NCBI GenBank assembly: GCA_002205965.3 | Contig: NADL03000451.1 | Span: 2,976,001-3,040,000 of the forward strand | DNA from: Kappaphycus alvarezii | Taxonomy: Eukaryota; Rhodophyta; Florideophyceae; Gigartinales; Solieriaceae | DNA length: 64,000 bases | Direction of reading: 5' to 3' | In this document: in pieces, positions 20,161 through 52,705 of the stretch | How positions within the stretch are numbered: the stretch's first letter is position 1 | How the letters are laid out: every line of letters begins with the position of its first letter | The notes under the pieces: model-generated | Database searches by the model: none | Told to the model about the DNA's origin: nothing | Seen by the model: only the letters and a program-made list of their open reading frames with translations | Position numbers and translations under genes: made by a program

Positions 20161-21223
20161 TCAAGGTAACTGCGAACAATGGCATTTATTTATGCTGCAG
20201 GAAGGACAAAGTTGCAGAGAAGTATGGACTTGTAGAAATACTTCGAAAAGTCCTATTATTGTCGAAGATGGAAGACCGTGATTGCTCTCACTTAATTGAA
20301 CTTCAACAACACAATCACGATGAAGTGTTCTAATGCCGTATAGTATTTCTATTTGTCGCCATTCAGGAGTTTTGCGAAGCCTTTTTGCCAATTAATAGAA
20401 TGCCAGAAATGGCTTGTCATCTGAAATATGAGGAAAAAAACAATGATACGCTTCTGTCATGTACGTCACAATTTCGTGGAATGATACCACCCCAATTGAT
20501 TCACTGGTCTTGGTGCTGATGGTTTTGAGAAGTTTTCTTCTTACCCATTGACCGGAAGCGGGTAAATGGAACGAACCAGAGCGAACATCCTCGCTCCATC
20601 TCTTCAGCGGAGATTTCTTGAACTGTTTCTTCATGGCCTTATCTGCTTGTTTGATGAAGTTCTTGTGACCATCGCAGTCTTTATTAATTAGATCTCCATC
20701 GTAACCAAGCATTAGTCCTCTCAATGCCCTCCAATACAAACATTCATTTATCTGAGTCTTTAATGATAGATTATGCAGTACTGCAACTCTATACATCCAA
20801 TCATTACAAAAGGGAATGCTCTACAGCATAAACGTAAGCATCTGGATGGTTGCTGCGAGCAGTGCTTAGTTTTATAGGCCGGTAGGCCGACTCAAATACG
20901 AGCTCCATCACCTACCTGTAGTGTCCCAGAAGTGGCAGTGTTGTCTCGTAAAACTCAATTAACCTATGACGGTTCGGCTTTTACAAAAGATTTCGGGCGA
21001 CATCTGACTCTGTACGGAGTTTGTTGATTCCCTCGACGTATATTCTGGAAATCTTCTTGAGCTCTTTAATGTATTGTGGCTGCAGCTCTCTTCTAACGAG
21101 ACAAACAGATTCCGGATCATCTATTCCTTCCTCTGGCCTCCAGTAAGTGAATCCAATTAATGACTGCAGTTTCTGCAGTTCTGATAAACATATCGTGATG
21201 AGAGCACTCTCATCGGAGGTCAT
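20161..21223 (-). pseudogene. cassette gene Y (unrecognised; weakly transposase-like)
   Basis: A minus-strand gene broken by at least one frameshift. From 21223 it reads LITICLSELQKLQSLIGF and HRLIEFYETTLPLLGHYR, then an in-frame TAG and ELVFESAYRPIKLSTARSNH near 20870. After a frameshift it continues from 20796 with INECLYWRALRGLMLGYDG, KQFKKSPLKRW and VSFHEIVTYMTEAYHCFF. The FES(A)xxPxKxxxxRSNH segment reminds me of C-terminal parts of large fungal and algal transposases, but I cannot assign a family. It lies just upstream of and divergent from gene X copy A, so it may belong to the same element. Confidence 0.4.
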
Positions 21224-21578
21224 GGTAACACGTTTGAATGCTTACGATCTCGTCACCAGCGCAGCTCCGATGGAAGAAAGAGGTCTATGGACTACCGCAC
21301 AAGTATTTACACCATGCAGAACGACCAAAAAAGCCGCGGGAGGGGAAGGTACCGAACGAAATAGCACAATGATGCAGAGCACTACACCATTAAATACTGA
21401 ACCAAGTAGTGCTACTCCTTCGACTACCGCATCGTGTGGTACTTTAACGCCGAGTATTGCACAGTCCAGTTCTGTATAACCGAAAACTGCATAGCCGACT
21501 ACTGCAGAGGCGACAACTGAACAACCGTCCACTGCACAGCCGCTACCAATATTACATGATGCTATTCAATCGCGCCCA

Positions 21579-22960
21579 TTGCATCGTTTTGTATACAGAA
21601 GCCATCATTACTATGAACTCTACTGCAGGATAGAGCTCAGGATGGGTATTTTATCCACACAGTTCCATCCTGAGGTGATTAAATGCTCGACAACCTATTT
21701 ATGGGAGGATTGGCCCACGTACGTTGACAAAAACCGTGAGTCAACCGCCAGCACTGCCGGTTCCTATGCCGCCGTCTGTGCGCTTTCTCATGACGTCATT
21801 GCCTGCGCTGAAACACCATACGAGGAAATGAGTGATAGGGAGAAGTCAGAGGTGAATGCGCTCAAAATAGTGTTACGTCGCGAATACATGATTATCTTCC
21901 TGGTGACATGGAGTGTGTACTTGGGTCTCGCTATCGTCGTGGAGGAAGGTACTATCGCGCTGTTAGACAGTACATGCGGGCATCTATATTTGGATGTCAA
22001 GCATACTGTCCCAGATATCATTCGTTACATGAAGGACATCCTGACTCGAGACCACAGCCTGAGGTCTAGAATTGTGTTTAACTACAACTGGGGTAGACCT
22101 ACGTTTTACGTGTAAAACGAGAAAGCCCTATTGGAAGAGGATGTAAGAGATATATCACTGCATTCAAGAGCGAAGCATGCCGTATTGGGTGTTGATTTTG
22201 ACGCCCCCAGAGGCCAGATTTGGGAAACTAGCACCGGTAGAGAGCTATGGCGTTTGAAGGATAAACGGGTCGGGGGTTTTCGAAGAAAGAACGGTTCAGG
22301 ACCCATCCTTGGTAGGTGCTTCACCCAAGATGAATGGAACACCTATCCTTCTTAACACTCCTTGGCTAGCTCGCAAAATTGGCTCAATATGGAGGGAGTA
22401 TTACAGTACATGATCTCATCACTAACTTGTACGACATGCCCCGTGGCTATTTTAGAAACTGCGTCCATACTGCCGATTACTATCGAACCGTTCATACACA
22501 AGCAAATCAAATTGGTCACTTCGTGCGGGGCACACTGAATAGAAAAAATAAGTATAGCAGATCTGGAGGGCCCAAACGAGGTTTAAATACGGCAGGTATT
22601 ACTCGGTATCGAGGATTACTGGTAGTGGTTATGGCGGCTACAGTGACCCAAAACGCATTCGATCGATTGAAAAATATGGGCAAAGTACATGTAACAACCA
22701 TTGCAGATCGTATAGCAGTGACAGTAGCTCGCGGGACCCGTACAATCAAGATGTCTCTTATCGCAATGGAAGTAATCGATATGGAAACGAGCTTTCCTCC
22801 TCTGGAGCCAGGGGTTCGTACGGGTATGACCGTGGTAGCCATGAATACGAGCATGTGGGTCAGTCTTCAGCGGGGGACAGAATAAGGGTTAGCCCCTTGC
22901 GCGTGGAAGTGATGAGCGTGGAAACTGCACTACAACTATCGATTTGACACACGACCAAAA
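21579..22960 (+). pseudogene. cassette gene X, copy A (unrecognised, gag-like layout)
   Basis: One plus frame from 21579 to 22355 is broken by a single TAA at 22113, then the reading shifts frame. Landmarks: SEVNALKIVLRREY, IALLDSTCGHLYLDVKHTVP then DIIRYM near 21960, DFDAPRGQIWETSTGRELWR near 22195, and a C-terminal SYSSDSSSRDPYNQ...NRYGNELSSSGARGSYGYD region near 22700-22850 rich in Ser, Gly, Tyr and Arg. The TC...D...TV..I...M segment and the RxELWR motif align without gaps with gene X copy B (51092-52705), about 27% identity over 37 residues by eye. The Ser/Gly/Arg-rich tail suggests RNA or nucleic acid binding (inference). Confidence 0.5.
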
Positions 22961-23321
22961 AGGATATCAACGTGGAAATACTGGTACCAAAATCAACACA
23001 AAGGACCCGTATCGTGCAAAGTACAAGAACCATTACAACCAGTGATACTCTAATTGGTGTTGTCAGTAGAACCTAATATGTAGAATCCGCTTTCTAGTTT
23101 TGATCATTGCTTTGCGTGAATTCTTGCATACATGAGTTAAGTCATGAGTGTATGACTTGGTCTAGACACAGCTCTAGTTCCAAATAACTGTAGATGCATC
23201 TGTACTGACGATTTTAAAAGAGGCCTGTTCCGCCTGTAGTGGGTGCAAAGCCCCGACCTCATATGGAATATGAATGAAATTTACAGTGAACAAAGCTGAG
23301 GGCAGTCCAAAGCACTTGAAA

Positions 23322-25660
23322 TCATAGCAGTACTGCATTGTTCTGAATTTTAGGAACTATAGCATTCCTCTCACCCAAATTATTATCATCAGTGAGTGTT
23401 CCTGCGTTCCTGTGATTCTCTGGTTGATTTGGGATGTCATATACCTTATCATATACCGGCAAGCACTTCGTATTGAGTTGGGTGATGGTAGTGCGCTTCG
23501 CGGGCATGAATGTGGCTAGTGTATACATAACACATGTGACTTCTTCAGGATCTGGAATGACACCGTTCTCCATGTTTGAGGACCGTATGAACTCTTGCGT
23601 TAAGACACGGAACAATGCAGCTAACGCATAAATTGAGCGGAAGGAACCCTTGTGCAGACAAAGTACAATTTACATTGACGGTGCTTGTGCAAACTCCTTT
23701 ATGTAGTTGGCCGCAACCTCTAGAACATTGATTTATCTTCGCAACCTACGCACATGCCCAGAGCTCTTCCTCCGTAGTTTGGCGTCGCTTTGTACCATAG
23801 TGACTTTATGCTCCGCGACTAACACGAAATATTCATAAACGCTGCATAAATCCTCCAGTATGGCCTTGTTCTTCACATCACCTTCATTACTGTCACCGAC
23901 CGCACCGCCTTCACTAGCGTCGGCAGTTTTGTGATATGCAAGTCTCATTATTTTCTCATTCTGCCGGTCGGATGAGTACTCTTCCTTGAAATATATCTTG
24001 ACAGTTCTCTGATCAAGGTCAGAGTTGAACTGGGACCATTCGACGAATAGAAACCCTATGTAGCAGAAGAACACTTTTTTCACTTTATCTATAGATTGGT
24101 GGAGATGAGCAGCTACCAGCCTGTACAATGATCAAGCTCCATGAACATCGATATCGTGCTGCGACGGTTCACCCCTAAGATTGTCCGTTCTTCCTCCATC
24201 TCGCTTCGTCTCAACTACGCTCCGGCCAAAAAGAATATGTTCGGTGCCAACATATCCCTTCTCCAACCAAGCAGGACGTTTGATTCTGACCTTGGGTTGC
24301 ATATTTGGGATGTCATCAGTTTCACAAATATCATCACCGCGGAATGACTCCTCACAGTTTCCCGGTCGTGACCCCCTCCTTGTTCCTAGATAAAAGTGTC
24401 GAATTGGCTATGTTGCACTTTTAATAAGGCACCACTGATCACTGCATACCGAAAGTCGCAAGGAGCCAATCCTAATACCTCATAGTACATCTCCTTCGTC
24501 TTGTCCGTTGGGAAGCTGAAGATAATCACTCGAACCACCTCACAGACTGCTCCTGTCAGCTCAGAAGTACTTCTGTTGGCACACTTTTTCTCTATCAAAC
24601 TGTGGATGTTGAAACAAGATAGACACGACAGTACATCTGCACTGAGAACAACTTCACCGTAGGGGATATACTTGTCCAAGAAGTCTGCTCTTCTCGTCTT
24701 GAGCTTCGACTTGGAACATTTCCCTCATCAATTACCCTTCACAAAAATCACACTGTCAAGTTTGGCATCCAGATATCTGATCTGATTCGATTTTTTTTGT
24801 TTTGCCTCAGAATATCGCTTTGCATACCGTAAAACTCTCCTCTGAGTTTCTTGAGTACTTCACCCTGAAACGATTTGAGCAAAGCTATCATTGAATCAGC
24901 GTTCGTGTCCATGTCAAAGGGTGATTTGAAACCCGGCTCAGCCGATCTAGGCATTCTTTCCTCTTAATCGGCACCGATGGATTCCGCAAGCCTCCTATCT
25001 GGTAACCCCCCAAATTTTCTTCGTTCTTTTTTGAGCATTCCTCGTTGAAGGGGTGCCGGTGAGTTGTCAAGGCTCTGCGGCCTTATGTCATCATTTCTTT
25101 CTCTTCTCTCAACGCTGGTTCCTTCCATGGCCATGGTAGGTGTGTCATAACATAGGTCAGGGCTAGGAGACCGGTTCAGAACAGCACTGTTCGTTATTCT
25201 GGCAGGTGACCCAACGACTGCTGCATCAACGAGAATGCCCTTCTTGAAAAGACGCTTGCCTTCCGAGCAATCGCTTCCAGCCACTCCTTCGGACCCATCA
25301 GTGCGAATGCGCTTCCTGCCTCGAACAATTGTTATATCCTTCCGTGATTCTGCAGCAGCAATTGCTAAAATATTCAACCGGAACAAGGGTGACTAAGTAG
25401 CATCATCTTCCCTACTTTTGGCTCCATTCTCACTGTCCTAACTCTCAGTAGTGGAGTCCTTTTACTTGCTTACGGGTCTCGCTGCTTTCACTTTTTCTTT
25501 TTATCAGACGCTTTCTTGTAATCAGCCATTCTTTGACCTTTGTTACGGGCTCTTCGAGAGCGATTAGCTGGCATGGTGATACTTCAACTCGACTTGGGAG
25601 GTCACTGTATTCTCGGTTTCTTGGCATGCGTGAGCACTTCAACAGGCTTCCATAGGACAA
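23322..25660 (-). pseudogene. cassette gene N, copy A (unrecognised)
   Basis: Minus-strand gene with several frameshifts. From 25386 it reads AAAESRKDITIVRGRKRIRT, GKRLFKKGILVDAAV and, after one TAA, ADSMIALLKSFQGEVLKKLR. From 24679 it reads DKYIPYGEVVLSADVLSCLS; near 24290 KRPAWLEKGYVGTEHILFGR; from 24128 YRLVAAHLHQSIDKVKKVFF; from 23615 MFRVLTQEF...VIPDPEEV. Each block has a counterpart in the same order in copy B (45115-47510): KDEIDVRGAKRIKE, a DTLRQYLLKFEEE helix, a KRW...HVEIL block, CLVKAFLHERRKVAKTVLFE and VVFRGLAKNF...VKPVPESQ. The basic patch suggests a nuclear protein; the family is unknown. Its 5' end faces gene T copy A. Confidence 0.55.
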
Positions 25661-26037
25661 TAGAAAGGATGACTCAATACAGGCTGTGGTACCAGAGTTC
25701 CAATTGGGAACAAGTTGATTTTGCTCTATCTTTTATGAAAGTTTTTCAATGGAAGAAGAATGGCTTCATGCCTTGAAGATAACCTTTTTTAGATGTGCTT
25801 CTTCCATCCATGTATTACTTCATCATTTTAATTCAAAATTAAAGACCCTAACCCCTCCGCAGCACTCAACAACATGTTCTTCTCTGGAAGATATAATGAG
25901 AAGGCATAGATACACTTGTTTCGGTTTCGGTCCGATTACAGTCAAATAGACTCCGTATATCCCCCATGTGAACGTTTACCACTGTGACATCAGGTTGTTA
26001 TCCGGCATTGCTTATATCAATGAATAAAAGCAGTGAA

Positions 26038-27529
26038 GAAGTACTCCGCACCGTTTCCAATGTGCGATTCACGCTCAACCCCGCAGAAAAGTTCCATCCT
26101 TCCGTTATTGATAGTACGGTTCTTTCAAACCGTGGCGACCACATACATCTCCTTTGGACACTGGATGATTTGAGAGGCAAACCGGATGTGTGGTGCCTTG
26201 CAGATGTGCTTTAAATCAAGGAGCGCTCTTCAACTAACGTACTTGCGTATGGCGTTATTCTTTAACCGGCTGGTCAAAAAGCTGAGATTGAGGTACATGA
26301 GGCAGATTTTCTACGTGGTCGGCTATTGCGTAGACATGAATATGATGTTGAAATCGATGTCAACGACAACCCCATCCTTTCCTGGCGATTCAGTAGAAAT
26401 CAAATTTACATAGCTCTACAGGCAAAGGAGTCTAGTGGAGATCCAGATTGGATAGATTACGGGGATTGTCAAAGCACGAAAAGAAGACCGGCCACTTGCA
26501 GCAATGAATGTAGTCATGTTCCATTTGATGTTGACATCAGGAACTTGAGACGGGAATATGATAGTGTAGCTACAAATCTTGACATGGTGCGTACGGATAT
26601 CAAGGATCATGATTACAGGATATCGATATTAGTGTCGATATCGAATACAGGTCTGCTCAACATTGAAGAGGGTCGAAGAGTTGTCATGGATCTTCATCGC
26701 GCTTTGGCTCTCCGCTGCGAAAGCCACCCAAGCAAGGTAATCTGGAAACACGCGCAAGATTTTCGGATGCCGCTTTGTTCTTTGATGGATACATGCAGGG
26801 TACTTTGAAGGCAAAAGTTCCATGCAGCAATTCTCTGCGGTTGCTCGCATGATGAGAGGAATGGTACCATCTCTCTCAGAGCTACGATTCTACCAAAGCT
26901 TTTCTGAAACACAGTGCCCACCCAGTACCAGCTCTTTCTTTTCGATGTAGTTCCCCTCCTTTGCAGCTCTGTGCGACAGTACGAGCATACACTCAAAATC
27001 AGATATGTTCAATATGATGAAAAAATGTGGCAATGGGGGAGAGGCCGATATCTTAAGGCTTCTAGGAACTTTTTGCTATGGAGATAAGCATACAGATTCT
27101 TCCTTTGTTTAAATTGGTGCAAGCTCAAACCAAGATTACAGGCCGGTTTTCTTGGAGCGTGATAGTACTATCAACGGCAAAAAAGCCGATCAATTCTGGG
27201 CTTTGTGGTGGTCAAACAGATTGTATGATAAGAACGATGATACATACAAAACGAACATGCATCTTCGAGGAGTGGCTCAAATGTGGTCATCAGACCATTC
27301 TGAATGTGCCTCACAAGGCGTTTACAGTTTCTTCTTGGTAAGATGGAGGAGGCAACCGAAGTTATGGCGAGAATGGCCATCGGAACTACGTCAAGAAAAT
27401 CGCATCCAAGGTACCATGGAAGTAAATTTACCATTTGTTCAAACGCATGGTACTGCGCTCTGCACCGACCTAGGAGGGCTCGCTTATGATCAGTTCCTCA
27501 TGGTAAACATACTTGGAGGAGGCTTGTAG
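26038..27529 (+). pseudogene. cassette gene T, copy A (unrecognised)
   Basis: Plus frame with two TAA codons, then frameshifts. It reads HIHLLWTLDDLRGKPDVWCL near 26150, NVLAYGVIL, then EVHEADFLRGRLLRRHEYDV and NPILSWRF near 26390. A coiled segment follows (DIRNLRREYDSVATNLDM), then FFDGYMQGTLKAKV near 26780, ILRLLGTFCYGD near 27065, and FWALWWSNRLYDKNDDTYKT...YSFFLVRWRR near 27200-27345. The same series occurs in copy B (43510-44961): GELLWELDD, RVLASAVLQY, EVEFLPGHLLRVTEEEIYV, FLEWRT, FDG...AK, LLRVVGSYDYD and ALWRSTR...MMTWRR. The first block could be a Tudor- or PWWP-like barrel (a guess). It is divergent from gene N copy A. Confidence 0.6.
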
Positions 27530-27593
27530 ATTCAGAGCGTAACGAGCTTTTGATAAAGTTGGTCTTTGTTCTCACAAGTGTTTCAGAACCGTA

Positions 27594-27957
27594 CTACTCT
27601 CGCAGGCCAGGACTAGAATAAGTAGAATAACTCTCCACACTTAAACATTTACATGTGTTTATGCACAGAACTTGTGGAAGCTCTGGTGCGTAATGCGGTG
27701 TGCATGCATGCCACAGGTATGTACGTATGTTTGCTACGGGCCACATAGGGCGGCGTTTGGCACGATTCGAGCTAGTCCCAGAGGGACTAGGCCGTGGTGG
27801 GGCCCTCGCCGTGGCCAATTTTTCGAATTGTAAGTTTACATTTCTTTGGAATGTACGGTGGCCGTCCACAATCAATTCATCTCTTCGTGTCACTCACGCT
27901 TAATATATTTTAAAAATCTATGCGGGCACAGTCACTGGCGATTAAATTTAATGGGAT
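27594..27957. other. junction between cassette copy A and gypsy integrase remnant
   Basis: No gene recognised. If the cassette inserted into the gypsy element, one insertion boundary lies here and the other near 17690-17960. I could not find matching terminal repeats or a target duplication by eye. Confidence 0.4.
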
Positions 27958-27989
27958 TTTCAGAAATTTACCTTGTATTGCTGGCCATG

Positions 27990-30110
27990 GAGGTGATCGA
28001 GGAGGAGAATATGTTGGATCCGGAAGATTTGGATCGACTAATAACCCTAGAACATGATTATGCTGACCATATCCGTGCAGCAGCATATGAACAAGATCAA
28101 TCAGCGGGTCGATTGTTAGAAGAACTGCCGAGTCTCATCACATGCGATGAGATAATAGAAGAAAAAAGAATGATTAATTTTTTCTAGCAGTTCTGGCCAG
28201 GCAAACACGCCGCAGAAATCGGTCCACTTTCTTCGAAGGAAATGATAGAATACTTGAGAGGAGAATTCATAATGATGGACAGGTCTAGATATTCCTTTCG
28301 AAAACATTGCGAGGTAGGGTGCTAAATCTATCGCATAACTCTTTTTTCGCAGTAAATACAGGGAAGAAGAGGATGTGGGAGTCTCACCGCTTGACATGTC
28401 ACTTGCCTCACATGGTCGGGGATTGCTATGCGACGGTTAGAAGCTGTTTCCATTGCGCAAAAAATCGAAGAAGGTTGCCTCAGAAGACAAATTACTTGAA
28501 GCTGATCCTAGTGTCTATTGGACCGTTGTCCTCATATGAGGACATTTGTCCTCATATGAGGACTACTTTCAGCACTTCTTTTTCAATACAAAACTTTTTT
28601 ATCTCAGCGCATTTCTTGTCCCTCCGCATTAGTTCATGAGTGTAGATGGCCGATCAAAACAAACTTTTCAAGATTGTTGACCTCGGTGAAGGCTAGACCA
28701 ATTTTCCCTCACCAGCTTCCGCTCTTCGCAAGAAGTTGTGAAAACGACTTCATTTTGGAAGGTAAAATAGTTCGTATTATCGTGGGGGGTTTCAGAAACG
28801 AGGGCACATGTACAGTAAAAATTACTGTACTGTATCTAAACATAAAAAACCTTTTTTCCAGTAAAAATTTCGGGCTTCCAAAACATTTTCCTTTCCAAAA
28901 TGTAACGGAAATTGTCCTCATATGAGGACAAAGTGTGCCTCATATGAGGACAGTGCGTGGTCGGATAGACAATAGCCACCAAAACGTTTCAGAAAGTTGG
29001 TATGGACTTGTTAGGACCCCTTTCAGAGACACCATCACGCAATAAGTTTCTCTTGGTTATAACATGTCTCTTTCAAAATTAACCCACGTAGTGCCCTTGG
29101 GTGTCATCTCAGCTTACAAGGTAGCATTGTCATTTTGCAATCACTGCATATTTAAGTATGGTACACCAGAGACTGTCTCAACTGATAATGGAAAGCAGTT
29201 TCGGTCAAATAATTTAATGCTGTGTTTCGACACTTGCAAGTGGCCAATAATTTCACATCAACTTACCACCCACAAACCAAAGGTCAAGTTAAAAGGTACA
29301 ACAGAACTTTTGCTGCTTTTTTACGAGGACATGTGAGCAAAGCCCAATCCGAGTGGTATCCGAATGCAGCAGCATTCGAGTTTTCCAACAATTGCCAAGT
29401 TCATCGGCCAAAAAAGCACAACTTCTTTTGACCTTATACTCAGTCGACCACCGCTTGAACTTTCCTTCCATCATAGTGTTACAAATAGGGCACGTCCAGT
29501 TCGAGAACTAAAACAGACTTCACCTCGCGACTCGATACAGCCATCCAGTCTGCATGCAGTCGCCTGCAGAAAACCCAAGAGCGATACTGATGCGACTTTG
29601 ATGCAGGATTTCGCGTGACCAAAACAAAACTTCGCACAGGGGATTGGGTATACTTGGATAATCCAGAACATCGCCCTGGAAAACTGGAGTATCACGCGCA
29701 AGGACAGTACAAATTCATTCGAAACGAAGACCGAAACATGCCACTTTACGGCGATGGAGTCATAGAAAGAGTCAATTCGGATCGACTTACCCCGACACCC
29801 CGGACGTATCATGTACCTTTCTCAATATTTCGTTCAAACTTTTCATAGGCCTCAAGGAAAATGTCTGGCGTTGCTGATAAAATCGAAGGGAACCATGTGT
29901 GTGAGAATTTGAGGGATGAATATGTAGTAGATCGCATCCTTGGACATTATTAAAATGAGAATCCAACTGCACCTTCACGTGTAATGGAATGGGTACATTC
30001 ATTCTACTCTAGCAGAAGCGTGGAAAAGGACCGGATGAGCCAGTTTCCGCTTACCTTGCTCGCAGACGTCGAGCTAACAGACAATAGCGTTCACGGGCTA
30101 CGAACAAAGG
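27990..30110 (+). pseudogene. Ty3/gypsy pol remnant: integrase with chromodomain-like tail
   Basis: From 27990 it reads an acidic linker (EEENMLDPEDLDRLITLEHD). Next comes an integrase HHCC finger near 28310-28450 (RVLNLSHNS, then DCYATVRSCFHCA; the second His of the finger appears as Asn), and then, beyond a small insertion, VGMDLLGPLSETPSRNKFLL near 29000. FKYGTPETVSTDNGKQFRSN holds the second Asp. YHPQTKGQVKRYNRTFAAFL has Lys where the catalytic Glu should be. The tail LRTGDWVYLDNPEHRPGKLE and, near 29915, EYVVDRILGHY...VMEWVHSF look like a gypsy C-terminal barrel and chromodomain. Inactive. It may be the downstream half of the pol at 15290-17690. Confidence 0.82.
28525..28953. mobile_element. 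small TIR element (MITE-like) with doubled palindromic ends
   Basis: About 430 bp inside the gypsy integrase, between its zinc finger and catalytic core. Each end carries two 16-bp palindromes: GTCCTCATATGAGGAC at 28528 and 28548 on the left, and at 28914 plus a one-sided variant at 28936 on the right. Together they form terminal inverted repeats of about 38-40 bp. It has no coding capacity. An obvious target duplication was not found. Confidence 0.75.
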
Positions 30111-30119
30111 AAAAGGGAG

Positions 30120-34683: not shown

Positions 34684-34963
34684 TGTGGTAAATACCCGTG
34701 GCCGGCCTTTACTTCTGTTTTTCGGACACTTTTTTCAGGCATAGTCCACTGAGCTTTTTTTAGGCACTTTATATTCGCCGCTACACAAGGGCCGATCATA
34801 CTGGGACGACAGTAAAATGACCCGGCAGGACCACCAGGATCCATTGGCCCAGGTTTGTCCCCCACTCCTGCAAGGCACACGCGTGTTAAGGTAACAACTA
34901 TAACATGTGTACTCGATCTAAACAACTTGCCAACTACGTCGATAATTTGGACGAATGAGCGCC
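34684..34963. repeat. dispersed repeat, copy 2 (pairs with 13683-13961)
   Basis: Same orientation and about 95% identical to copy 1, ending at the same GAGCGCC. Here it is followed by unrelated sequence rather than gypsy gag, so the shared end is the real end of the repeat or of a deletion. Confidence 0.85.
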
Positions 34964-35639
34964 TTTACAGTACACTCTTACTGTCAAACAACTGCTACTC
35001 AACTACAGCTACTCAAGCATTATCGAGAATTTTTCTATCTACCCCGCTTGGCCAATAGCTATCCAACTAATAAAAATGCCACCTAGTCTCACTAACTCTC
35101 TGGCCAAGATCTCAGTATCATGATTGACTCGCAAAGCAGGGGCAGCGTATGACTTTGAACTCTCATAGGTGGCCATTTCTTTGGATTTTTTCCGTTCCTG
35201 ATCCATTTCTTTACGTTTACGTGTAGTTAGGAGTAGCACTAATACTTTTCGGCATCTACCAAACCCTTACTTTAACTTATTTCTGTTTTTGACCACAACT
35301 TCCGAACCCGACCATCACATATTTACAACCGTCACCCCCTACCAAAACTGTGACCACTCCCCATAAACTATGGTCGAGATCTGGCCTCCCCCCTGAAATA
35401 TCCCGACGATGTTTAAAACTGTAGGATGCCATGAAAGGGCTCCTTTGCATAGCCCCAATGGAATTACCTCCTCACAAATAGAGGAAATGCTCAAATGACG
35501 GATTGGGGCTGGGATTTAGCCAAAATCACTCAACCTGCAGGATATTCCGTGCCAAAGCCAACTGTATCTTTCTCCCTTCCTATGCAACTCATTGGAAAAT
35601 GTCAGAAGTTAAGCCACATTATGTCTACTGCTTTATGCG
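34964..35639. other. no gene recognised
   Basis: No conserved reading or RNA gene is visible. Short chance readings only (for example 35039-35239 minus and 35503-35787 plus). Confidence 0.5.
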
Positions 35640-35935
35640 CGCAGTAATGTTTTGTGTGTTGCAACTTGACCACTGTAACTCCTTACAGCGAAAAAATCAA
35701 AAGTTGCCAAATCCAATTCTGGGCACTTCCAAGTACGTATACCGCTTCGGTAGTATGCGTAGTCATGTTCTGCGTGTTTCAACTTGAACCACTACAAGCT
35801 GCTTACGGCGACAAAATCAAAAGTTCTTAATTGCAATTCTGCACACTCCCAAATACATATACCGCTTCGGTAGTATGCATAGTCATGTTCTACGTGTTTC
35901 AAATTGAATAAATGTAAGTTGCTTACACAAGTAAA
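35640..35935. repeat. tandem repeat, unit about 120 bp
   Basis: Units share the block TACCGCTTCGGTAGTATGC (35738 and 35859), followed by GTAGTCATGTTCT/ATAGTCATGTTCT and a GTGTTTCAA(C/A)TTGAA segment, with AAAATCAAAAGTT between them. Two and a half diverged copies are visible. Confidence 0.8.
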
Positions 35936-35939
35936 GGTA

Positions 35940-36235
35940 GATTCGAAGTTTCCAAAAATGTGCGAAATTACGTCTTTTTGTGGAGTAAAACTGAAAACAT
36001 GCGAAATTGGGCATTTTTTGTTGTAAAATTGACATTCTTTAACCAGCTTACAGAATGAATGACGAATCCAAAGTTTTCGAAAACATGGGAAACTACGTCA
36101 TTTTGTATAGAAAAACTGAAAACATTCGAAATTAGGCTATTCTGTGTTCTAAGATATTTTCTGTCAATGGGCGACCCCAAATTCGAAGTTTTCGAAAACA
36201 TGCGAAATTACATCATTTTGTATAGTAAAAACTCG
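35940..36235. repeat. tandem repeat, unit about 120 bp (AAGTTTTCGAAAACATG family)
   Basis: Three units start with GATTCGAAGTTTCCAAAAAT-like text at 35940, about 36063 and 36181. Each continues GCGAAATTAC and TCATTTTGTATAG, with a GAAAACAT(G/T)CGAAATT(G/A)GG half-copy between. It is distinct from the array just upstream. Confidence 0.8.
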
Positions 36236-36479
36236 TATATTGGGAAATAGGCGTTCTGGGTGATTTTCATAACTCCACGAATGAAGGGCAGGGTTTTGCC
36301 ATTTCGGGAGCGATAATATATGGGGTTTAAGGGGAAAAGTCGTTTTAAGGGTGTTTGAGGCCTCGAAGGTGGAATTTTTTTGGACAATGCGAATGAATAT
36401 ACGAAATAAGTCGCAGTTTTTTTCAAAATTTTTGGACCAATCAGAATCGAGTGCTTCTGACATTCGTACTAGAGGGGTG

Positions 36480-39631: not shown

Positions 39632-39795
39632 TAAAACCATAAAACCCATGATGATGGGTTTCCCGGCTCCAGCAAAGGTGAAGAACGTAGCAAACTGCGA
39701 AACGTAATGTGAATTGCAGAGCCAGTGGATTGTTTTGAACGCAAGTGGCGCTTGGGGGTAATCCTGCGAGCATGCATGTTTGAGTGTCCGCACAA
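39632..39795 (+). rRNA. 5.8S rRNA (diverged)
   Basis: The core GTGAAGAACGTAGCAAACTG and CGTAATGTGAATTGCAGAG matches the conserved 5.8S GATGAAGAACGCAGC...ACGTAATGTGAATTGCAGAA, and GCATGCATGTTTGAGTGTC near 39770 matches its 3' end. The 5' third is more diverged than usual, consistent with a decaying copy. The ends are approximate. Confidence 0.88.
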
Positions 39796-42304: not shown

Positions 42305-42829
42305 CAGCGTTGGAAAGGGGAATGCAAGCTCGCATTTATTTAAAGTGCCCACACTTACATCCATAAGGATCAACAGTGGACACTATGATCATTTAGTTCG
42401 TTCGGGTAATCGATCGAGCCTCTAAACCTAGGAAGCAATGGGGCAGAGCTAAGAGACTAGCTACAGGCGCTTACAGTGCATCCCGTAATAGTCTAATGCC
42501 ACGTTGGTGTGGTGTACCCTTACCAGCGATGGTACCCATTTCCTGTCGGTTTGCCGGGCCAAATCCTAAAAAATCTACTGATTTTGTCTCAGGACGAAAT
42601 GAGCGTTTGCACGCCATTCTGCTGGGCCAAATTCCAGAATATCATCTTCCAGCATGAGACAGTTGTAGTCCGAGCCGATCCCAGCAACAACATAAATAGA
42701 CGTTTGTCGCTTGTTGTCGTTGGAGGGCACCGCTTCTCCTCCAAGTCTCCACTCCAATCCGTTTTCCTTCTAATCGTTCCTTCTTCCCAAGTTTCCAATC
42801 TTCACTTCATCCCCCCTACCAATATCTAT
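42305..42829. other. post-28S breakpoint sequence
   Basis: It starts immediately after the 28S break. No R2 protein or 28S continuation is visible. A pyrimidine-rich leader (about 42770-42826) precedes the reading at 42830. Confidence 0.45.
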
Positions 42830-43099
42830 ATGGTTGGGGGCATCAAGCGCACGGTGAAGCAGGCCGCTGAGGAGGACCGTCACCGCCAGTTGGCCTTGGA
42901 GCGCATGGCCGCATTGCGCGCAGAGGAGGAGCGCGCGGCGGCGAGTCGCGCAAGTAACGAATCAGAGTCCAATTCCAAGAGTGGCGCGGAGGCTGGGCCG
43001 TCAGAATCGAGGTCTGGGAAGCATAACTTTGCCACACTTTTTAACTGTAAAACGTTTAAACCAAACGCAGTCTTCGTATTTTCAGGAGGCGTTAGCTGA
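42830..43099 (+). CDS. hypothetical Ala/Glu-rich coiled-coil protein (first exon?)
   Basis: The ATG at 42830 follows a long pyrimidine-rich leader and opens MVGGIKRTVKQAAEEDRHRQ, then a GC-rich Ala/Glu/Arg coiled coil and a Ser-rich end (SNESESNSKSGAEAGPSESR). Base composition jumps against its neighbours, which supports coding. The reading could splice: TTCGTATTTTCAG at about 43070-43083 is an intron-like acceptor, and the following frame gives EALADRRNHPSDLVSDL before a stop. Function unknown. It may be the edge gene of cassette copy B or of whatever inserted in the 28S. Confidence 0.4.
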   Translation: MVGGIKRTVKQAAEEDRHRQLALERMAALRAEEERAAASRASNESESNSKSGAEAGPSESRSGKHNFATLFNCKTFKPNAVFVFSGGVS

Positions 43100-43509
43100 T
43101 CGGAGAAACCATCCCTCAGACCTGGTTTCTGATCTGACTAGCGTGATTATGGCTTATTGAAAACCATATTTTCCGTAATGAAGTTGTTTTATGGGACGTA
43201 CGCCTCTAGATATGAGGCCTCTGGACAAGGTGACCCCGACGAGCTTGTGATATTCGCTCAAGGCAGGAACACTACGAGAGCAATCCCGAGAAAATCAATA
43301 AAATTTATTACGTGCACGCATTAAAAACAATATTTCAAAAAATTGTTGCCATTTTATTGGTACATCACTTAAATTGTAATGCGAACTATCCATGCCACAC
43401 TATTCCAACGAAAAAGTTTCAGTGGAAATCATATACCAATGCTGCAAACCCCTTCCCTAGTAATATTATTGGGTGCCACCCCATGAACTTCATTCAGGCA
43501 ACTTAAAAT
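43100..43509. other. no gene recognised
   Basis: Spacer between the coiled-coil reading and gene T copy B. It may contain the second exon noted above (about 43084-43160). Confidence 0.4.
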
Positions 43510-44961
43510 TCATTGAATTTGAGATAGGAGGTACTCTGAAGTTAGAGGATCTGCCACCTCTTCGCACAGTACGTCCCCTGCAGCTGCAACTGCAGGCATG
43601 GTCAAATCCAATTTCCCACTAATTCTACTGGGATTGCATATACTCCTTGACCATTTCTTTCGGTTCGGTTCCTCCCCTCTGCGCCATGTCATCATGAACT
43701 GACGGTAGTCTACATCTTCGTTTCCTTCAGCAAAAGGATCTATATGGCTTCCGGGTATCAAAGTCGAACGTTGCAGGGCTGCAGCGAACTTCTGTGAACC
43801 AGCCAACCACTCGCGAGTCGATCTCCAAAGAGCATTCCCGCGATGCGATTTAGAAAACTCCTCATCCAATTCATCTTCGTCCCTAACAACACGACCGCAA
43901 CTCCTTCCAGCAAAAAGGGTAGCAGGTTTCGCTTCATTCATCCTATCATAGTCGTAAGACCCGACTACTCTGAGCAGCTGTCCAGCGGGCCCTTTTTCTG
44001 TTCGCTGAATTATTTGGTTTCGATCGTAAACAGAGGTTAGTCCAACTTGATCACACAAAACACCCATGGAAGAGAAAGATATGCAGAACTATTCCACGCT
44101 GTCGGCAGGGTCCTGCGTGTAGTGAAATGCCGGGAAAAACTTCACCTGTCCTTCTCCCTTTGCGGTTTCCCAAGCGAAAATTTCCTCAGCAAAGAGACTG
44201 AAATGCTCCAGTATGCAGTCTACAGACAGTCTGACAACGTTTTGGAGTATTGCCTTAGCCGGTAAGTAGTCATTGGTACCGTCAAAGATCTTCTATTTAG
44301 CCGGAGTTCGCTAAGTACACTGAGCAAGAACACAGAGCTTGTGACGAAGCACAGCCTTCAAGCACTCAACCGTTTCACTTGAAGAGGGAGGACTCCCTCT
44401 TTTCAGTATTTTATAGTTCAATTCAACTCGCCTTTGCATTCCTACTACTTCCGCGCCCAATCGCGCATGGCTTTCACAAAGCCTCATTAGTGTCCTATCG
44501 ATCTCTATGTATGATTTCCGCAGACGCTTCTGACATATATTGACCTGTCGTCCTGTTCCATGCAATGAGCTACCTTCCCACTCGCTTTCTGATGAAATCA
44601 AAATCTTTTCTTCCGTCCTGCCGGCCTTATGCTCAGATACCGTTCGCCATTCCAAAAATGTGTTGTTGTTGACATATATTTCCTCCTCTGTAACCCTGAG
44701 CAAGTGACCTGGAAGAAACTCAACCTCATCCTCCGAGCCCTCGTACGTTTGATCACCATCCCTCAAGCAGCGATACTGCAGGACTGCAGATGCTAGTACT
44801 CTCTGTCCAGATTTCTCGGTGCAGTCTTGAAATCTCTGAATGCTTTTTAAATCCGCCTTCCACCACTTTGTCGACCCATCGTCGAGCTCCCACAATAACT
44901 CCCCAACATCAATGACACATGGAAGAAACGTCTCGTTTCTGCACGAGCGGGGCCTCTCCAT
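43510..44961 (-). pseudogene. cassette gene T, copy B (unrecognised)
   Basis: A single minus-strand frame of about 484 codons from the ATG at 44961 (MERPRSCRNETFL), with three in-frame stops (two near 44300, one near 44080), all TAG, and no frameshift. Blocks: VGELLWELDDGSTKWWKADL, RVLASAVLQYRCLRDGD, EVEFLPGHLLRVTEEEIYVN, FLEWRTVSEH, a helix (KRLRKSYIEIDRTLMRLCES), FDGTNDYLPAKAI near 44290, GQLLRVVGSYDYDRMNEAKP near 43975, NALWRSTREWLAGSQKFAAA near 43830 and RQFMMTWRRGEEPNRKKW near 43690. All align with copy A (26038-27529). The N-terminal part may be a chromatin-reader-like barrel (inference). Transcribed away from gene N copy B with only about 70-150 bp between starts. Confidence 0.6.
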
Positions 44962-45030
44962 ATATATGAAATATTGATGACGGCACGGGCTGCTTAACGA
45001 TAACGAACGTTGGAGGGCAGGGGTCAAGAC

Positions 45031-45038
45031 TATATAAA
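45031..45038 (+). promoter_or_regulatory. TATA box of gene N copy B
   Basis: TATATAAAA lies about 35-80 bp before the first codons of gene N copy B, inside the short divergent region shared with gene T copy B. On the minus strand TATATATG sits immediately at the T start. Confidence 0.5.
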
Positions 45039-45114
45039 ACGAGTTTCATTCCAATGAAAAGATTTTGCCATCGCTGACACATTGTCTAACTGAGTGTTTT
45101 TGGCAGCAAAGAAA

Positions 45115-47510
45115 TGGAAACGGTGAACAGGCCTATCCAGCAGGCGACAGCTGCAAGAAGATGACTCTTCAATCAATCCCTATTTTTTCATTGAAATACA
45201 AAATCCAGTGCCCACCGTCTTGCTATCCATTAGGCGTGTTTAGCTGTGAGCGATTGGAATCCCAGAAAGAGAAATTCAAGAGGATCCTTGAAGTACCAAA
45301 CAGTTGACCTACTTAGAAGAGATATCGCATCTGGAGTCGTCGCAGGTGTCAACCACAACTCAATGTCAAAAAGAGTTGTTGCGCATTCTTAGGAAAAGGA
45401 CGAAATTGACGTTCGTGGTGCAAAAAGGATTAAGGAGAATGAAGTACATCTTGACTTTGAAGACGAAGACATGGATCTCGGGGGAGTGGGGAGTGCAAAG
45501 AGTCGCAACGGAAGCCGGATTTCAGAGACTCTGCGATGCTATCTCCAGATGACCAGTCGGACGACGAACGGTACCGCAAGCCCTCACATGAACCAAAGAA
45601 ATCATTTCATAACTCAATCATGCGAATTGGGGAACAAGAAACATCAAAATTAGTGAAAAGGGTTGATGATTCGAAACTTCTGAGTATTTTTTCTGGTGAA
45701 GACGCTGGTAAAGAAGCAGGCCCCTCAAGTCCGAACATTTCAAAGCGTCATTCAGAGGAAGACTCGCAAGATCGAGACGAAAGAGAGGTTCCACGCGTGG
45801 ACACGCATGTCGAAAACGAGGAAGGTCCAGCAGCTGCTTGTCCATGAGTATCAGAGGACACTCTGCGGCAGTATCTACTTAAGTTCGAAGAGGAAAACAA
45901 GCATCAGATCGTCGATGCTGTCCCAGTAATCGACGAGAAGTTGGTAAAGCTCTCCCGCGACATTTCAATTGTAAAGAAGGACAAACGAGAACTACGGGCT
46001 TCTGGTATTGGCGACCTCCATCCTCTCTTCAAAGGTTCACCTTTGAATGATTTCATTGCCAAATCCAAAGATGAGACGAAACACGCCAAACAAATTTTCG
46101 ATAAACAGTCGCTCTCCTGTGTCCTTTGTTGTGTAGTTACGGATTTTTCAACCAAAACTTTGATTGAAGAGGATGGTACCCTAGAACAACGTAGGACAAA
46201 TTCCTTAAAGACCTTTCATATTTTCTCTGCTACCTGGTCAATCACGGTCAATATGGAAAGAGAGAAAACAAAGGCATAGCGCTTTTCATCGGCAACTCGT
46301 TGTCAACGCCATATTCAATGCGCAAATGAACTTTTTCGATATGTTTATACCACTTTCGGAACACATTGATCTCGAGACTGGTGCAGTGGAAGTAAATGAA
46401 GATAATGCATCCATCGAAAAAGACCGCAAAGCAAGTGGCAGAACAGTTTCTCACTCCACAACAGAGAGCAGAACAGCTGAAAAGCCAAAAGAAACGGAAT
46501 CTTCGAGTAAGATAGAGCATCCAAAGAGGTGGACGCCGAGATTCATTACGACTGAAGACATCGAAGCTGCGCAGCGTCGACACGTGGAAATATTGAATGT
46601 GAGAGATAAAGATAAGGGCGGCCCGGATTCGCGAGATTTGGGACCTTTAGAGGTAAGATACGAAGTGAAAGATGTTCCTAGTCGGTAAGACATCTCAAAG
46701 TCCGGAGTGTCGCGAGTATTCTGTCTTGTGAAAGCATTTCTACACGAACGAAGAAAGGTCGCAAAAACTGTGCTTTTCGAGGAATTTTTGTACCTCTTCA
46801 CTGCTTGAAATTCGCCATCTCATGCCTCAACGGAAGTCCTTCCTAATGAAGTCAAGATCAAATGGGCACTCACTGATTCAAATGACTTTTTAGACGTTGA
46901 CGAAGTCCCTTTGGCGACAGGCAAACAAGTAGGACCCATAAGTGTCGACCAACATAACGGTGATCTTATGTTGAAGAAGTTGCAAGTCTCGCCATCGATG
47001 TTGCTTCTTGTAATTCTCAAGGTCCAAGTCTTTTCAGCTTCTGGAACCCTCCAGAAGCACAGAGGAGGAGAACAGAGAGTGTTACGCCGCGCTATCAACC
47101 TCATTGATGTCTCCGGGCGGTTTCTGGTCGTGTTAACGCAATCTAATGATAAGCAGTGTAACATTCTTCCATTCCTGCGGTTGCATTCAATGATACTTCG
47201 CAGCATTGGCGCTGTTGCCGTTGTCTTCCGAGGTCTCGCGAAAAATTTCACAGACGCATTCGAAGAGGGCAGCAAAGTGAAACCCGTACCAGAATCGCAG
47301 TGGACAGAATTCATTTTCAATGATTTGACATTGGACACTCTAATGACCGGTGCTTGTGATCGGAGGATAAGCATAACCAGCCATTGTCGCAGAATGACAG
47401 ACGTGGAATATGCGAAACGAAACGTCAGAGTGCCGAGAGAGCATCTGAAAAGACTTCCTCAGAGAAAAGCAACGGTCGCAACCCCGAAAAGTATGACTTG
47501 CGCGTCATAG
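45115..47510 (+). pseudogene. cassette gene N, copy B (unrecognised)
   Basis: Plus-strand gene broken by stops (a TAG just before 45390, TGA at 45845, TAG at 46277) and several frameshifts. Start METVNRPIQQATAARR at 45115 (tentative). Blocks: SMSKRVVAHS then EKDEIDVRGAKRIKENEVHL near 45390; a charged region (EDAGKEAGPSSPNISKRHSE); DTLRQYLLKFEEENKHQIVD near 45860; FKGSPLNDFIAKSKDE; KRWTPRFITTEDIEAAQRRH near 46530; VFCLVKAFLHERRKVAKTVL near 46720; VLPNEVKIKWALTDSNDFLD; VVFRGLAKNFTDAFEEGSKV...VPESQW near 47220. The order matches copy A. No family recognised; the basic-acidic composition suggests a nuclear protein. Confidence 0.55.
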
Positions 47511-48278
47511 CAGGTGTATACTGAGTGTGAAAAGAGCAACTAGTATACTAGAGTTGCAAATCATGTTGCGAAAGAGGGCCCTCTTTCATCCCGGGATGAT
47601 AGGCGCGCGTTGTTCGGTAAATTTCATCCGAGCAGCATAAAATGTAGAATGCCAGTCGTCTCAATCAGAGTCATGATTCATACATGGGAGTGAGAAGTGC
47701 AGGAGAATTGCGGGTTCGTAGAGATGGGATGATGACTAGGAAATGGGGAACAGGAAAATGAGATTTTCTCGATACTCGACCGACAAGGCGGGTTGAATTT
47801 GATCAAAGGTGTGAACAAACTCAGCTATCCAGCCTGTATCGCCTTGTTGGTTGGCATCTTTCGTATTCAAAATTGCCAGTATTGAAACATATAAATAGTT
47901 CATATTTACGCACTGTAATAATTTGGGTTACAGTATTCCCCTTACCTAGTGAATAACCTTGCTTCCCACCCACATGTACAGAAGAATGCTTGCATTACTG
48001 TATGCGGAATATGTGAAAACACTTTTACTAGCTTGTTAGGGGAATGGTCGTCATACCATCTTACAAATCAATATTGCATTACAGTCTCGACGCCATGCAC
48101 TGGTAGTACGCCAGCAAAGATGGCAGCAGTTACACTAGACCGAACGACAAAACTAAACTGTTGCCTAAGGTTTCGCAGAATAGTTGCGGGGTGGAACTCG
48201 ATCTGTAGGAGATCCGGGTCGCATGTTTTTTCAGGACCTGAGCGGCTCGGGAAGAAATTGCGCCGAGGGTGTCAAACG
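47511..48278. other. spacer with small perfect palindromes
   Basis: No gene. CTAGTATACTAG inside a GCAACT...AGTTGC stem (about 47535-47557) and AAAGAGGGCCCTCTTT (about 47571-47586) are adjacent perfect palindromes just beyond the end of gene N, possibly transcript-end hairpins. Confidence 0.45.
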
Positions 48279-49870
48279 TTAGCGGACCAATTGCCACCCT
48301 AGAGGAGGAAGTGGCGCGAAAGACGGCAGGTTGAGGGCGTTGCGCATTTTTCGGCCGTGGGAGTTTAGCTCGTCGGAATCAGCGATGTCCGCTGCGGCGC
48401 TGAGGGCTCTTGTAGCGCGGCGTATAACGACCCATTGTACGGGCTCCGGAAAGTGACGCCATATGCAGTTGGGAGGCCTGGGCCATCCCCTGGATATGGT
48501 GTTGGGTGTTGGACATAAGGTCACCAGGTCGCACGGATGTGCCAGGTACAAGGAGCGGAGTCTGGATCTGGGTTGAGAGGCCTGTTGCGCGAAAAAGGAG
48601 GCGGGAGAGCATGTTGCGAACGTTATTGTACCTGTGCGTCATTCTATACCCGGATTTGCAGTTGGAGGCGTGGTCGCCATACGGATTCATCGCGGTATGG
48701 CATTGCGAGCAGCGCAGTGGTACAGAGTTGTCATACGCAGGGATTTGAAGGTGTCTCCCGAGCATGATAGACCGTAGAGAGGACGAAAAGTGCGAGGAAG
48801 CGGATGAGGGGGCACTAAGGAAAGCGTTTGCGCCTGTGGAAAGAAATGAATTCTACCAGCTGCGTCTCCTGATGGAGGCGGTACTGTGGGATGAGGGGCC
48901 AGGATAGGAAGACCAGCTACTTTCCTCTCGGAATCGGTCCGCGGCAGTTTTCTGGAGTACCTTAAATAGAAAATGGACGGGTTCCGGACGCTGCAGAAGT
49001 GCATCAGGCTCGAACGGGCCAAACTTGGAGTTAAGATTCAGAAATACTTGCTCTGCGGGCTGCATGTCCGGAAGCATGCGGCGGAGGACGGCAAGGAGCG
49101 GGGGTCGGGCGAAGCGGCGATACATGCCCACGTTTGGGTAGGACGGGCCACTGAGCCGTAGAGGAGCTGCTTGAATAATATTGGCGGCATAGCTGGCGTA
49201 GTAGGTCGTAGATACTGCCGTAAAACCGTGACCACCGGCGGACAATGGGGGCCTTATTTGTTGTCCCACTATTGGGTCACAGGGACGTTGTTGAGACGTG
49301 CGTATGTGTCCGTTTGTTGCCGTTCAAAACTGCCTGCAAAGGGCTGCGATATTATTGGAGGCCTCCCGGGAGAAATGGAAACAAATACTGCAAGCCGATG
49401 CGGATGTGCGGCGAAGGTGGAATTTGATGCGACTGTCCCGAATATCTTCCAGTCGGGTGCATAGGTTCTGGCATTCGGTCAATTTTGCCTCGATGCGTGT
49501 GCGAGTGTAGGACTCGGATCCGATTGGGATGCCGAGAATCTCGAGCCCGTCGTGACGGGTACGTGAACGAGATGGGAACGGCTTCGCTTATTGATGACAG
49601 CTTTTCAGCTGACATTCAGGGCCAGAATGCGCGCGTGTTCGATGGGGTCATGAAAAAATTGTACTTGGGTCCTTCTGAAACGAGTATGGACAGCGCCCTC
49701 TGGACTTCAGTGATAGTTCCGATCAGGGTGCCATCGTCGACATACCATTTGTTGAACACGAGGTCGCATTCTCTGGAGATCTTGCAGAGGGAAGGTTGAA
49801 TAGCGAGGGAAAAAAGCAGCATGCTGGCTGGGTCGCCTTGCTGTGAGTCCTCTTAGCTGCGAAGAGTTGA
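48279..49870 (-). pseudogene. non-LTR (LINE) reverse transcriptase remnant 2
   Basis: Minus-strand RT motifs in order: SQQGDPASMLLFSLAIQPSL near 49840 (motif B), NKWYVDDGTLIGTITE near 49740 (active site intact), a GPKYNFFMTPSNTRAFWP stretch, SAGGHGFTAVSTTYYASYAA near 49230, and the LINE C-terminal finger CSQCHTAMNPYGDHASNCKS near 48700, followed by THRYNNVRNMLSRLLFRATG. Frameshifts separate the blocks. The N-terminal endonuclease is not seen, so the element is 5'-truncated, as LINEs often are. It lies between cassette genes N and X, so it inserted into cassette copy B. Confidence 0.85.
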
Positions 49871-50129
49871 GACGTCAGGAGTTGGTGTGATGGGAGAATA
49901 CTCATGCATGGGCAGTTTGAACTATTTTTAAAGTGCATATTACAGTCTCAAGTGCTTATTACAGTGTCAATGTAATGCTCCATAAAGCGGACGTCGGCGT
50001 ATGGGATAGATTCCATCTCATGATCTGGCATAGGCTCTTTCATAGGAAGTTTCATGATGAAGTCATGCACCCCGCTGACTCCCACTGCACATTGATCACT
50101 CCTCCATCGCAGCCTTCCCTCTACCCATT

Positions 50130-51091
50130 ATGATACCCGTGCACCTCTACAGCCCCGAGTTCCACTGCAAAAAGATCCCTCCCTCACCACCGCGCGAGCT
50201 CCCACCACCCCGTTAGTATCGTGCCACAACCCTCAATCTCACAACGCAGCTGCGGCAAGAAAAGCTGGCGATTCTTGACGTTTCAAAGCCCTCAACCTCA
50301 AAACAATAGCGTTCCTTACCCCTCTGCAGCGCTCCAATTCTCCACCACAGACCTTAATTCAAGAATACTGTACAGTGATTCCACTCACTAACACAAAAAT
50401 ACCCTACACCATTGAAACCCTCGGAGCCGGTCTCATGACAATAGATACCCCTTTCACAACGCGACAGTTCCTCACACCCTCACAGTCCTCAATCTAAAAG
50501 CAACAGCGCCCGGGCGAGAGGCTCCGGCGAGTGTCCATCGCCACATAACCATTTCTTAAGGTTCCCCTGCTAGCGCTAAAGATCACCCCACCGCCTCAGC
50601 AACTATCGCTCTCACCGCCACAGACCGAGGTGCTCCCAACTGCCACCTCAGCCGTCGCCCTCACAGATCACACAACCTCCCCCACATCCTAAGCCCTCCC
50701 CCTCGCGGCCGCAGACCTCCACCGCACAAATTTTTGCCACTTTAAGCAACTATCAACCTACCTCATCACTACCGATCTTGCACAATCCTCTCCGATTCTA
50801 ACGTTACCCTCCCTCCATGGACCATAAGACTCTCAAACTCTACCCTCATCGAACCTATCACAGTCTCTCCGACACCACAGCAACCCTCTCCGGCATTAAC
50901 ACTACAGCCATCCGGTCACCGTTAATACCATCTCCCACTGTCATTTCAACCCTACGAAGGTCTCCATTGCTACCATCTAGACCGGGGCCGTCTCTGTTAA
51001 TCGGGATCCAGCTGCTTAAGCACAACACGACTTTAATGCATTTATGGTAACAAAACTGGCTACAGCCGAACAAGAGCTAAGCTGAGCTCAG
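50130..51091. other. C-rich low-complexity stretch
   Basis: Rich in CCCTCA/CTCACA-like short blocks with loose repetition. The plus reading at 50817-51050 is Ser/Thr/Pro low complexity. No gene supported. Confidence 0.5.
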
Positions 51092-52705
51092 CTAAGAGTT
51101 ACTGGCGACAGCCATTGAAAGGGAACTTTGGCGGCGGCATAGGGTTACCAGGGGAGCGGCCGGCCTGCCTCCAGCTCGATACCATCCCCTGTCACGGGAA
51201 CGATGCGATCTTGAATCGTCAAAGTGACTCATTTGGTGACCATGGTGGTAAAAGTAACGACCTTCCTTATTTCGCCGCCCAACAAATTTCCTCCAGTCAT
51301 GCCGAGACTCACAGAACACGTTGGAGTATTCGTGTGCAGCGTAGTTGCTCACCCCGAACTCGAAGCTTGTACGAGGTGGTTCGAATGCAGGACGGGAAGG
51401 ACTTCCATGCAGCTCACTACGCCAAGGAGGAGAAAGACGTAAATCTTGATAACGGGGAAACCGTCGAGGACGATTATATTGTCCGGGTAAGCTGGGCGAA
51501 GGACGTAATGGCGGCTGCACAGCTATCTCATCCCGCGAAGCAAGCATCAATTCTTTGTACATATTTCTTCCGTCGGTCACCGCTGCCAGTTCTCGTATTG
51601 CTATGTTCAGCTTGTACGTGGTATCCCTAACCATCCACAGCAGAAGATCTAAAAGTGTCTTGTTCTCAATGCTTTGGCCCTCCCCCTCAAGCCATTTCCT
51701 TTGGATCACGAAGTCAGCCAGGCCTGGTACACTCTCTAAGTCTTCCTTTGCGAGCTTGACCTTTATCGGAGTTGCTCGCCAAATCTCGTCACGACGGTTT
51801 TGACGGATTACACGACGCAGACGGCGGAACTTGGGATCAATGTAAGTCATTACGCCTCGCGCAGGATTATCAACAGGTTTCCCAGTGGACCCACCGACAA
51901 CCCAATACGAAGATTCAATCCCTTTAATTTCACTTTTATATGAATTGCGATATTCAGGTTCAACTGCCGTAGCCGATCTCATGCAATACAGTATCTTATC
52001 GACTGTGACACTCGCGTCGATGACCATAGCTAAGCAGGTATCACGGAGGGTGCGAATCGAGTGCTGAGTCATGATCCAAAACCGCTTCCCTTCTATAGCC
52101 TCATTCCACCAAACACCTAGAATCAGGGCATTCGTTTCCAACTTCACCAATTTTTGAGCACGCGTTTTTCTCGGATGGTCATCCGTAGAAGCCATTGTCT
52201 TGTGCAAGAAGAAGGCGGCAGGGGCAAGGGGTAAAGGAAATTGGAAAGGCAGCTTCAGATCTAGAAACCACTTCGGTCTTGCAGGAAACGTCTCCTTCAC
52301 CTGAACCATTGGCAAATTTGAGGCCTCGAAAGCGTCAAAGGGGTACAGGACTCCCAATTTCACACGACAGAAGTGCTCGAAATAAAAATTCTCCCTATCT
52401 ACAAACAGATTCCACCACCTCCCCAGAAGATTGTCCCTCAGCAACGGCATTTCATTCGGTATGGTGGGCTCGTCAGATTCCATGAGATCATCCAGAGCAT
52501 CCAAGAAGTAGGCCTCCTTTATAGTGCGGGAGAAAGAGCGATCGCACTACAGTGTAAACAAAATGAGAAAGTACTGACGCAGTTCTGCGAATTGACTCCA
52601 CGCGTCCTTCGCAGTCTGAAACATTTCTTCAGCATATTGCTGAAACATCTTCACATCCGCACGAACATCAACAGTCTTTTTAAGAGCGTACTGACGGGAT
52701 GACAT
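51092..52705 (-). CDS. cassette gene X, copy B (unrecognised, one in-frame TAG)
   Basis: One frame of 538 codons including the final stop, from ATG at 52705 (MSSRQYALKKTVDVRADVKM) to the stop at 51092. It is interrupted only by TAG at 52549-52547, codon 53. It is the longest non-retroelement frame in the window. Features: charged N-terminal helices; LLGRWWNLFVDRENFYFEHF; KLETNALILGVWWNEAIEGK; SIRTLRDTCLAMVIDASVTV then KILYCM; FRRLRRVIRQNRRDEIWRAT; a helix LLDLLLWMVRDTTYKLNIAI; and a basic, aromatic, Ser/Arg-rich tail (DDSRSHRSRDRGWYRAGGR). The layout (folded helical part plus basic RS/RG tail) recalls a gag or nucleic acid-binding protein, but no zinc knuckle is present. The TAG is either a nonsense mutation, a readthrough site or within a short intron. 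Homologous to copy A at 21579-22960. Confidence 0.55.

Follow-up and report, generated by a model that had tools for sequence, protein, structure and literature searches.

We analysed 64,000 nucleotides of the red alga Kappaphycus alvarezii (contig NADL03000451.1, C447:2976001-3040000; genome of 336 Mb, 884 contigs), and this whole stretch is called the window below. The original prediction described three unrecognised genes, T, N and X, lying as a cassette twice within 20161..52705. Both sets lie in that range with the order and strands claimed, and the cassette recurs genome-wide. The limits of the units are different, however: element 1 spans about 17767-27980, and element 2 extends past the right window edge to ~68003. 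Each holds a fourth gene, D, in addition to T, N and X, and D lies at the border of the stated range or beyond it. As predicted, the window carries two decayed copies of a large mobile element, which is multi-copy in the genome. We refer to it as the D-X-N-T element. Its parts are as follows, in window numbering.

17767..27980, plus strand: element 1, very probably a decayed D-X-N-T transposon (aligned ends of the copies on C782 and C649; end motif)
17767..17783, plus strand: left terminal inverted repeat, CACTACAAGATAATTTT (end comparison)
20290..21280, minus strand: D1, C-terminal fragment of the putative transposase, with stops (tblastn with pieces from locus L036, E 7.6e-23 to 2.9e-14)
21495..22960, plus strand: X1, broken (match to X2, E 2.3e-5; end from the original prediction and open reading frames)
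23325..25660, minus strand: N1, broken (matches to N2 and to N of locus L037; outer limits from the original prediction and open reading frames)
26038..27529, plus strand: T1, broken (two stretches matching T2)
27964..27980, minus strand: right terminal inverted repeat, CAATACAAGGTAAATTT on this strand (end comparison)
43513..64000: part of element 2 inside the window, T2(-) N2(+) X2(-), with D2(+) outside; right end at ~68003, past the window edge
43513..45045, minus strand: T2, broken, pieces 44314-45045 and 43513-44088 (match to T1)
45115..47510, plus strand: N2, broken, best piece 46809-47507 (genome search; outer limits from the original prediction)
51092..52705, minus strand: X2, a 484-aa open frame at 51095-52546 and an N-terminal part (match to X1)

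The open pieces of the window were compared with each other at an E cut-off of 1e-4. Two stretches of T aligned (43513-44088 with 26963-27511, E 4.8e-8, 21% identity; 44314-45045 with 26086-26388, E 1.3e-6, 38% identity), as did one stretch of X (21495-22112 with 52346-52477, E 2.3e-5, 33% identity). The N copies did not align in this comparison. Their relationship was found genome-wide, where N2 (46809-47507) matched N1 with an E of 6.0e-4, and through a third locus, L037, whose N matched N1 over 23550-24257 (E 1.4e-7). Elements 1 and 2 belong to diverged subfamilies and are not recent copies of one.

Both elements are decayed. Element 1 has lost most of D, and its genes lie in short broken frames. 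Element 2 carries stops in D2 and in the N-terminal part of X2, which is separated from the 484-aa frame by an in-frame stop at 52547-52549, and it is split by a copia element and a LINE-like (long interspersed nuclear element) remnant. D2 lies just outside the right window edge (64310-67840, plus strand), nearly complete yet broken. Beyond it, the minus strand reads CACTACTAGG at 67994-68003, and the right end of element 2 begins with CA. At the left end we can name only a candidate, CACTACGAG at 43270.

Linkage of the four genes across the genome

All genome-wide locus counts are lower bounds. Adjacent matches were merged before counting, the candidates scored were 88 of 156 for X, 142 of 486 for D, 130 of 130 for T and 150 of 156 for N, and both elements of the window are included. 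After merging we obtained at least 50 X, 134 D, 77 T and 83 N loci. X and D lay within 20 kb of each other at 13 of the 50 X loci, 12 of these divergent. T had X as a neighbour at 31 of 77 loci (29 as predicted) and D at 24 (22 as predicted). Among the 83 N loci, T was a neighbour at 50, every time as predicted, X at 36 (35 as predicted) and D at 25 (21 as predicted). Both T and X were placed as predicted at 25 N loci, and T, X and D at 7, while 18 N loci had none of the three within 20 kb. Uniform placement would give 0.46-1.32 loci per comparison, which is a rough expectation since repeats cluster. This linkage contradicts the possibility that T, N and X never co-occur elsewhere. Because their order and strand are kept with D, X, N and T are genes of the element.

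Ends and copies of element 1

A DNA search of the genome with X1 gave 14 matches, with 77-87% identity excluding the query itself. Five of these loci, with 30 kb around each, were aligned to the window. The repeat exceeds T-N-X: in C649 and C782 it extends from window position 17764/17767 to 27980/27981, and right ends at 27976-27980 were additionally found in C510 and C768 (81-88% identity across alignments). The terminal repeats looked for are present, as short inverted repeats at both ends of element 1. Seven of the eight examined ends differ by three mismatches or fewer from CA[CA]TACAAGGTAAGTTT, counted on the printed sequences. With a looser scripted pattern these seven had at most two mismatches and the end in C510 had five; 5 of 2000 random 100-bp pieces of the window reached four or fewer. 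Intron-like ends and TA duplications were considered first, and the end comparison favours CA[C/A]TACAAGG termini. Since dispersed copies share sharp ends but differ in their flanks, the element has been mobile. The Kimura two-parameter distance of element 1 from the five copies is 0.138-0.179, so its spread is old.

A repeat of ~1.4 kb, often in inverted pairs, was seen at breakpoints within element 1 copies (loci L009, L019 and L023; C782:677619-680902, C768:87860-89219 and 91368-92049, C649:373983-375380). Two of these repeats enclose an inverted segment in C768.

Gene D is a putative transposase

At loci L036 and L038, LLYSDDFNP, CxxC and PDHLL motifs occur in open pieces that are divergent to X. 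By tblastn, D adjoins X divergently in the window (20290-21280), C1, C768 and C649; the window fragment is matched by D of locus L044 and by database relatives as well. A 271-aa piece of D had at least 146 genomic matches, and the L044 copy is an 814-aa open frame. The DDE triad is present in D relatives (D141 in 19/19, D222 in 19/20, E535 in 20/20), as is the C(2)C between the second D and E (C248 and C251 in 20/20). The predicted fold of residues 124-582 is a RAG1/Transib-type catalytic core, as judged solely from the VIA-align list, and the triad residues were paired with those of RAG1 by range offsets. From these features we conclude that D is the transposase of the element, with a predicted RAG1/Transib-type DDE core and C(2)C. 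Its C-terminal part is tentatively BAH-like.

Uncharacterised BWQ96_08694 of Gracilariopsis chorda (P0008) belongs to the D family (E 4.1e-131); it has 725 aa and, unlike D, starts within the DDE core.

X, N and T

X combines a conserved core (~300 aa) with an Arg-rich tail. Against 5.8 billion proteins, neither single X nor a 7-row X alignment gave a match at E ≤0.001 and 0.01 (best 8000 candidates scored each). A Pfam scan of X, N and T pieces gave no credible match, nor did a PDB sequence search with X, T, N and D, and T, N and X show no kinship to D at E <0.3. To judge from its sequence, T resembles a small beta barrel of the reader type, and the first part of N appears acidic and of low complexity. 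Three weak matches were judged to be chance: DciA (N of L037, E 0.092), Asp2 (a proline-rich X piece of L036, E 0.0089) and Pea-VEAacid (T2, E 0.26). A presumed T at L037, placed by position and eye only, had no tblastn or blastp support. The structure model of X2 made without an alignment (pLDDT, a predicted local confidence score, 30.7) is meaningless.

Insertions and other features of the window

48133..49852, minus strand: LINE-like remnant within element 2, supported at 49619-49852 only (reverse transcriptase), the remainder by eye
53944..60461, plus strand: copia-type long terminal repeat (LTR) retrotransposon between X2 and D2; LTR pair 53999-54398 / 60012-60384, outer limits approximate

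The LINE-like remnant matches RVT_1 with an E of 0.0048, below the curated cut-off, and window 10586-10804 with an E of 1.7e-11. The copia-type element has gag, integrase-side and SH3 domains (E 2.8e-28 to 5.7e-11). Window 1995-2394 holds a solo LTR-like copy in inverted orientation, with 90% complementarity to the copia LTR at 53999-54398.

Elsewhere in the window, an FAD-dependent oxidoreductase (DAO, E 2.4e-52; 2-1420, minus strand) is cut by the left edge and is likely a host gene. A DDE_Tnp_4 (PIF/Harbinger-type) transposase fragment lies at 2703-3347 (plus strand, E 7.6e-10). A 274-base dispersed repeat has 93% identity between 13691-13964 and 34693-34966, and degenerate tandem arrays with a unit of ~115-125 bases occupy 35639-36274.

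Comparison with known systems and alternative explanations

D-X-N-T is very probably an algal, likely red-algal, family of cut-and-paste DNA transposons, and the window holds two dead copies from two subfamilies. The CMCT transposons comprise EnSpm/CACTA, Mirage, Chapaev, Transib, Plavaka, ESTA and Lanisha (PMC12730594); the term 'BAH' does not occur in the main text of that paper. As far as CMCT elements are described there, D-X-N-T shares with them the DDE triad, C(2)C, CA..TG-like ends and a RAG1-type predicted core. It differs by D(4)H in place of H(3-4)H, three unmatched accessory genes and a possible BAH-like C-terminus. CMCT-type 5'-CA..TG-3' termini are present, as seven of the eight ends begin with CA. 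D would work like CMCT enzymes, yet it is placed in none of their groups. The best Pfam match among D relatives was the Plavaka transposase (PF18759, E 7.3e-5 in P0005, below the cut-off). Plavaka ends, given as TGT..ACA or CATCA..TGATG (PMC12730594), were not seen; the ends here are CA[C/A]TAC... RAG1, ProtoRAG (BbRAGL) and HzTransib resemble D in the predicted fold of residues 124-582. They have only ~9-12% identity to it and differ in their ends and zinc site, and no RAG2 partner was seen with D. The original prediction could not name the kind of element. The likely mechanism can now be named from the predicted core of D, while T, N and X still match no known family.

Several observations weigh against this interpretation. 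In D, the H(3-4)H between the second D and E is absent, with an invariant D509-x4-H514 in its place. The BAH match of its C-terminal part is below the safe level of the tool, and no BAH family was matched at E ≤1 in any of 20 D family members. In C508 and C509, tblastn places D pieces and X on one strand. The D1 stretch (~20.3-21.2 kb) aligns to none of the five compared copies, and most of D is missing in the element 1 subfamily; C649 keeps a different D piece at the junction where D1 lies in the window. The C510 end, with its five mismatches, fits poorly. Among the three copies with both ends, target-site duplications, 2-5 bp in CMCT transposons, differ: CCC/CCC in C782, only TT/TT in C649 and none in the window copy. 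Finally, C649:351005-354115 and C768:81988-85080 share ~3 kb past the right end (~82%) that has no window match, and C509 shares it partly. Simple insertion does not account for this sharing.

It is unlikely that the unit is a true EnSpm/CACTA element in which X, N or T corresponds to the accessory DNA-binding protein known from plants. The ends are CACTA-like, some known CACTA elements encode a second protein that binds DNA, and D matches tnp2 (PF02992) weakly, the best family score being 21.6 bits against a curated cut-off of 28.6. However, about half of the eight ends start with CAA and not CAC, and one with CTT. The H(3-4)H is lacking, the three accessory genes are unmatched, and no subterminal repeat array is present in the terminal 600 bp on either side of element 1.

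The original prediction also suggested an integrated virus-like element. T, N and X would then be structural or replication genes. Several family-less genes within a 10-kb unit would suit a decayed virus, but D is a putative transposase with a RAG1-type core and many genomic copies, the ends are short and inverted, and no capsid, viral polymerase or other viral hallmark gene was recognised among the scanned pieces. The D alignment gave pattern matches among viral and prokaryote contigs, none confirmed; the lack of relatives among IMG/VR contigs neither helps nor excludes a virus. This explanation is already disfavoured and we regard it as very improbable. Alternatively, T, N and X might each be an independent repeat or host gene, their proximity being due to chance or a common insertion preference; the genome is repeat-rich, and many loci hold one gene only (such as the 18 N loci above). 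This is hardly credible and already refuted for most neighbouring pairs, as order and strand are kept in 50/50 N-T, 35/36 N-X and 29/31 T-X pairs and common ends enclose the genes.

Proposed mechanism and meaning

Going by its RAG1/Transib-type predicted fold, D would cut the D-X-N-T transposon at the CA[C/A]TACAAGG ends and rejoin them at another place. The BAH-like C-terminal part may bind nucleosomes and so, tentatively, steer insertion or excision. In the likeliest scheme X, with its conserved core and Arg-rich tail, would bind DNA and assist D at the ends; T and N would be partners that deal with chromatin or silencing.

It is possible, although we would put it as a tentative proposal, that these elements are a separate lineage at superfamily level: red-algal RAG1-fold transposons with a D(4)H-altered zinc site, a built-in BAH-type chromatin reader guiding integration and three co-moving proteins unique to them. 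No such element was among the matches listed for open-licence literature on BAH and transposases, or on CACTA or RAG1/Transib in red algae, which is weak evidence of absence. V(D)J recombination of vertebrates derives from RAG1-type transposases, as described in PMC4411706. If true, a red-algal branch would extend the known range of the RAG1-type fold, and the changed zinc site, the possible chromatin-reading domain and the three linked accessory genes would be its features. The element would serve as a naturally occurring case for testing if a reader domain directs where a cut-and-paste transposase inserts. Moreover, three orphan gene families, with dozens of loci each in this genome, become annotatable as parts of one element.
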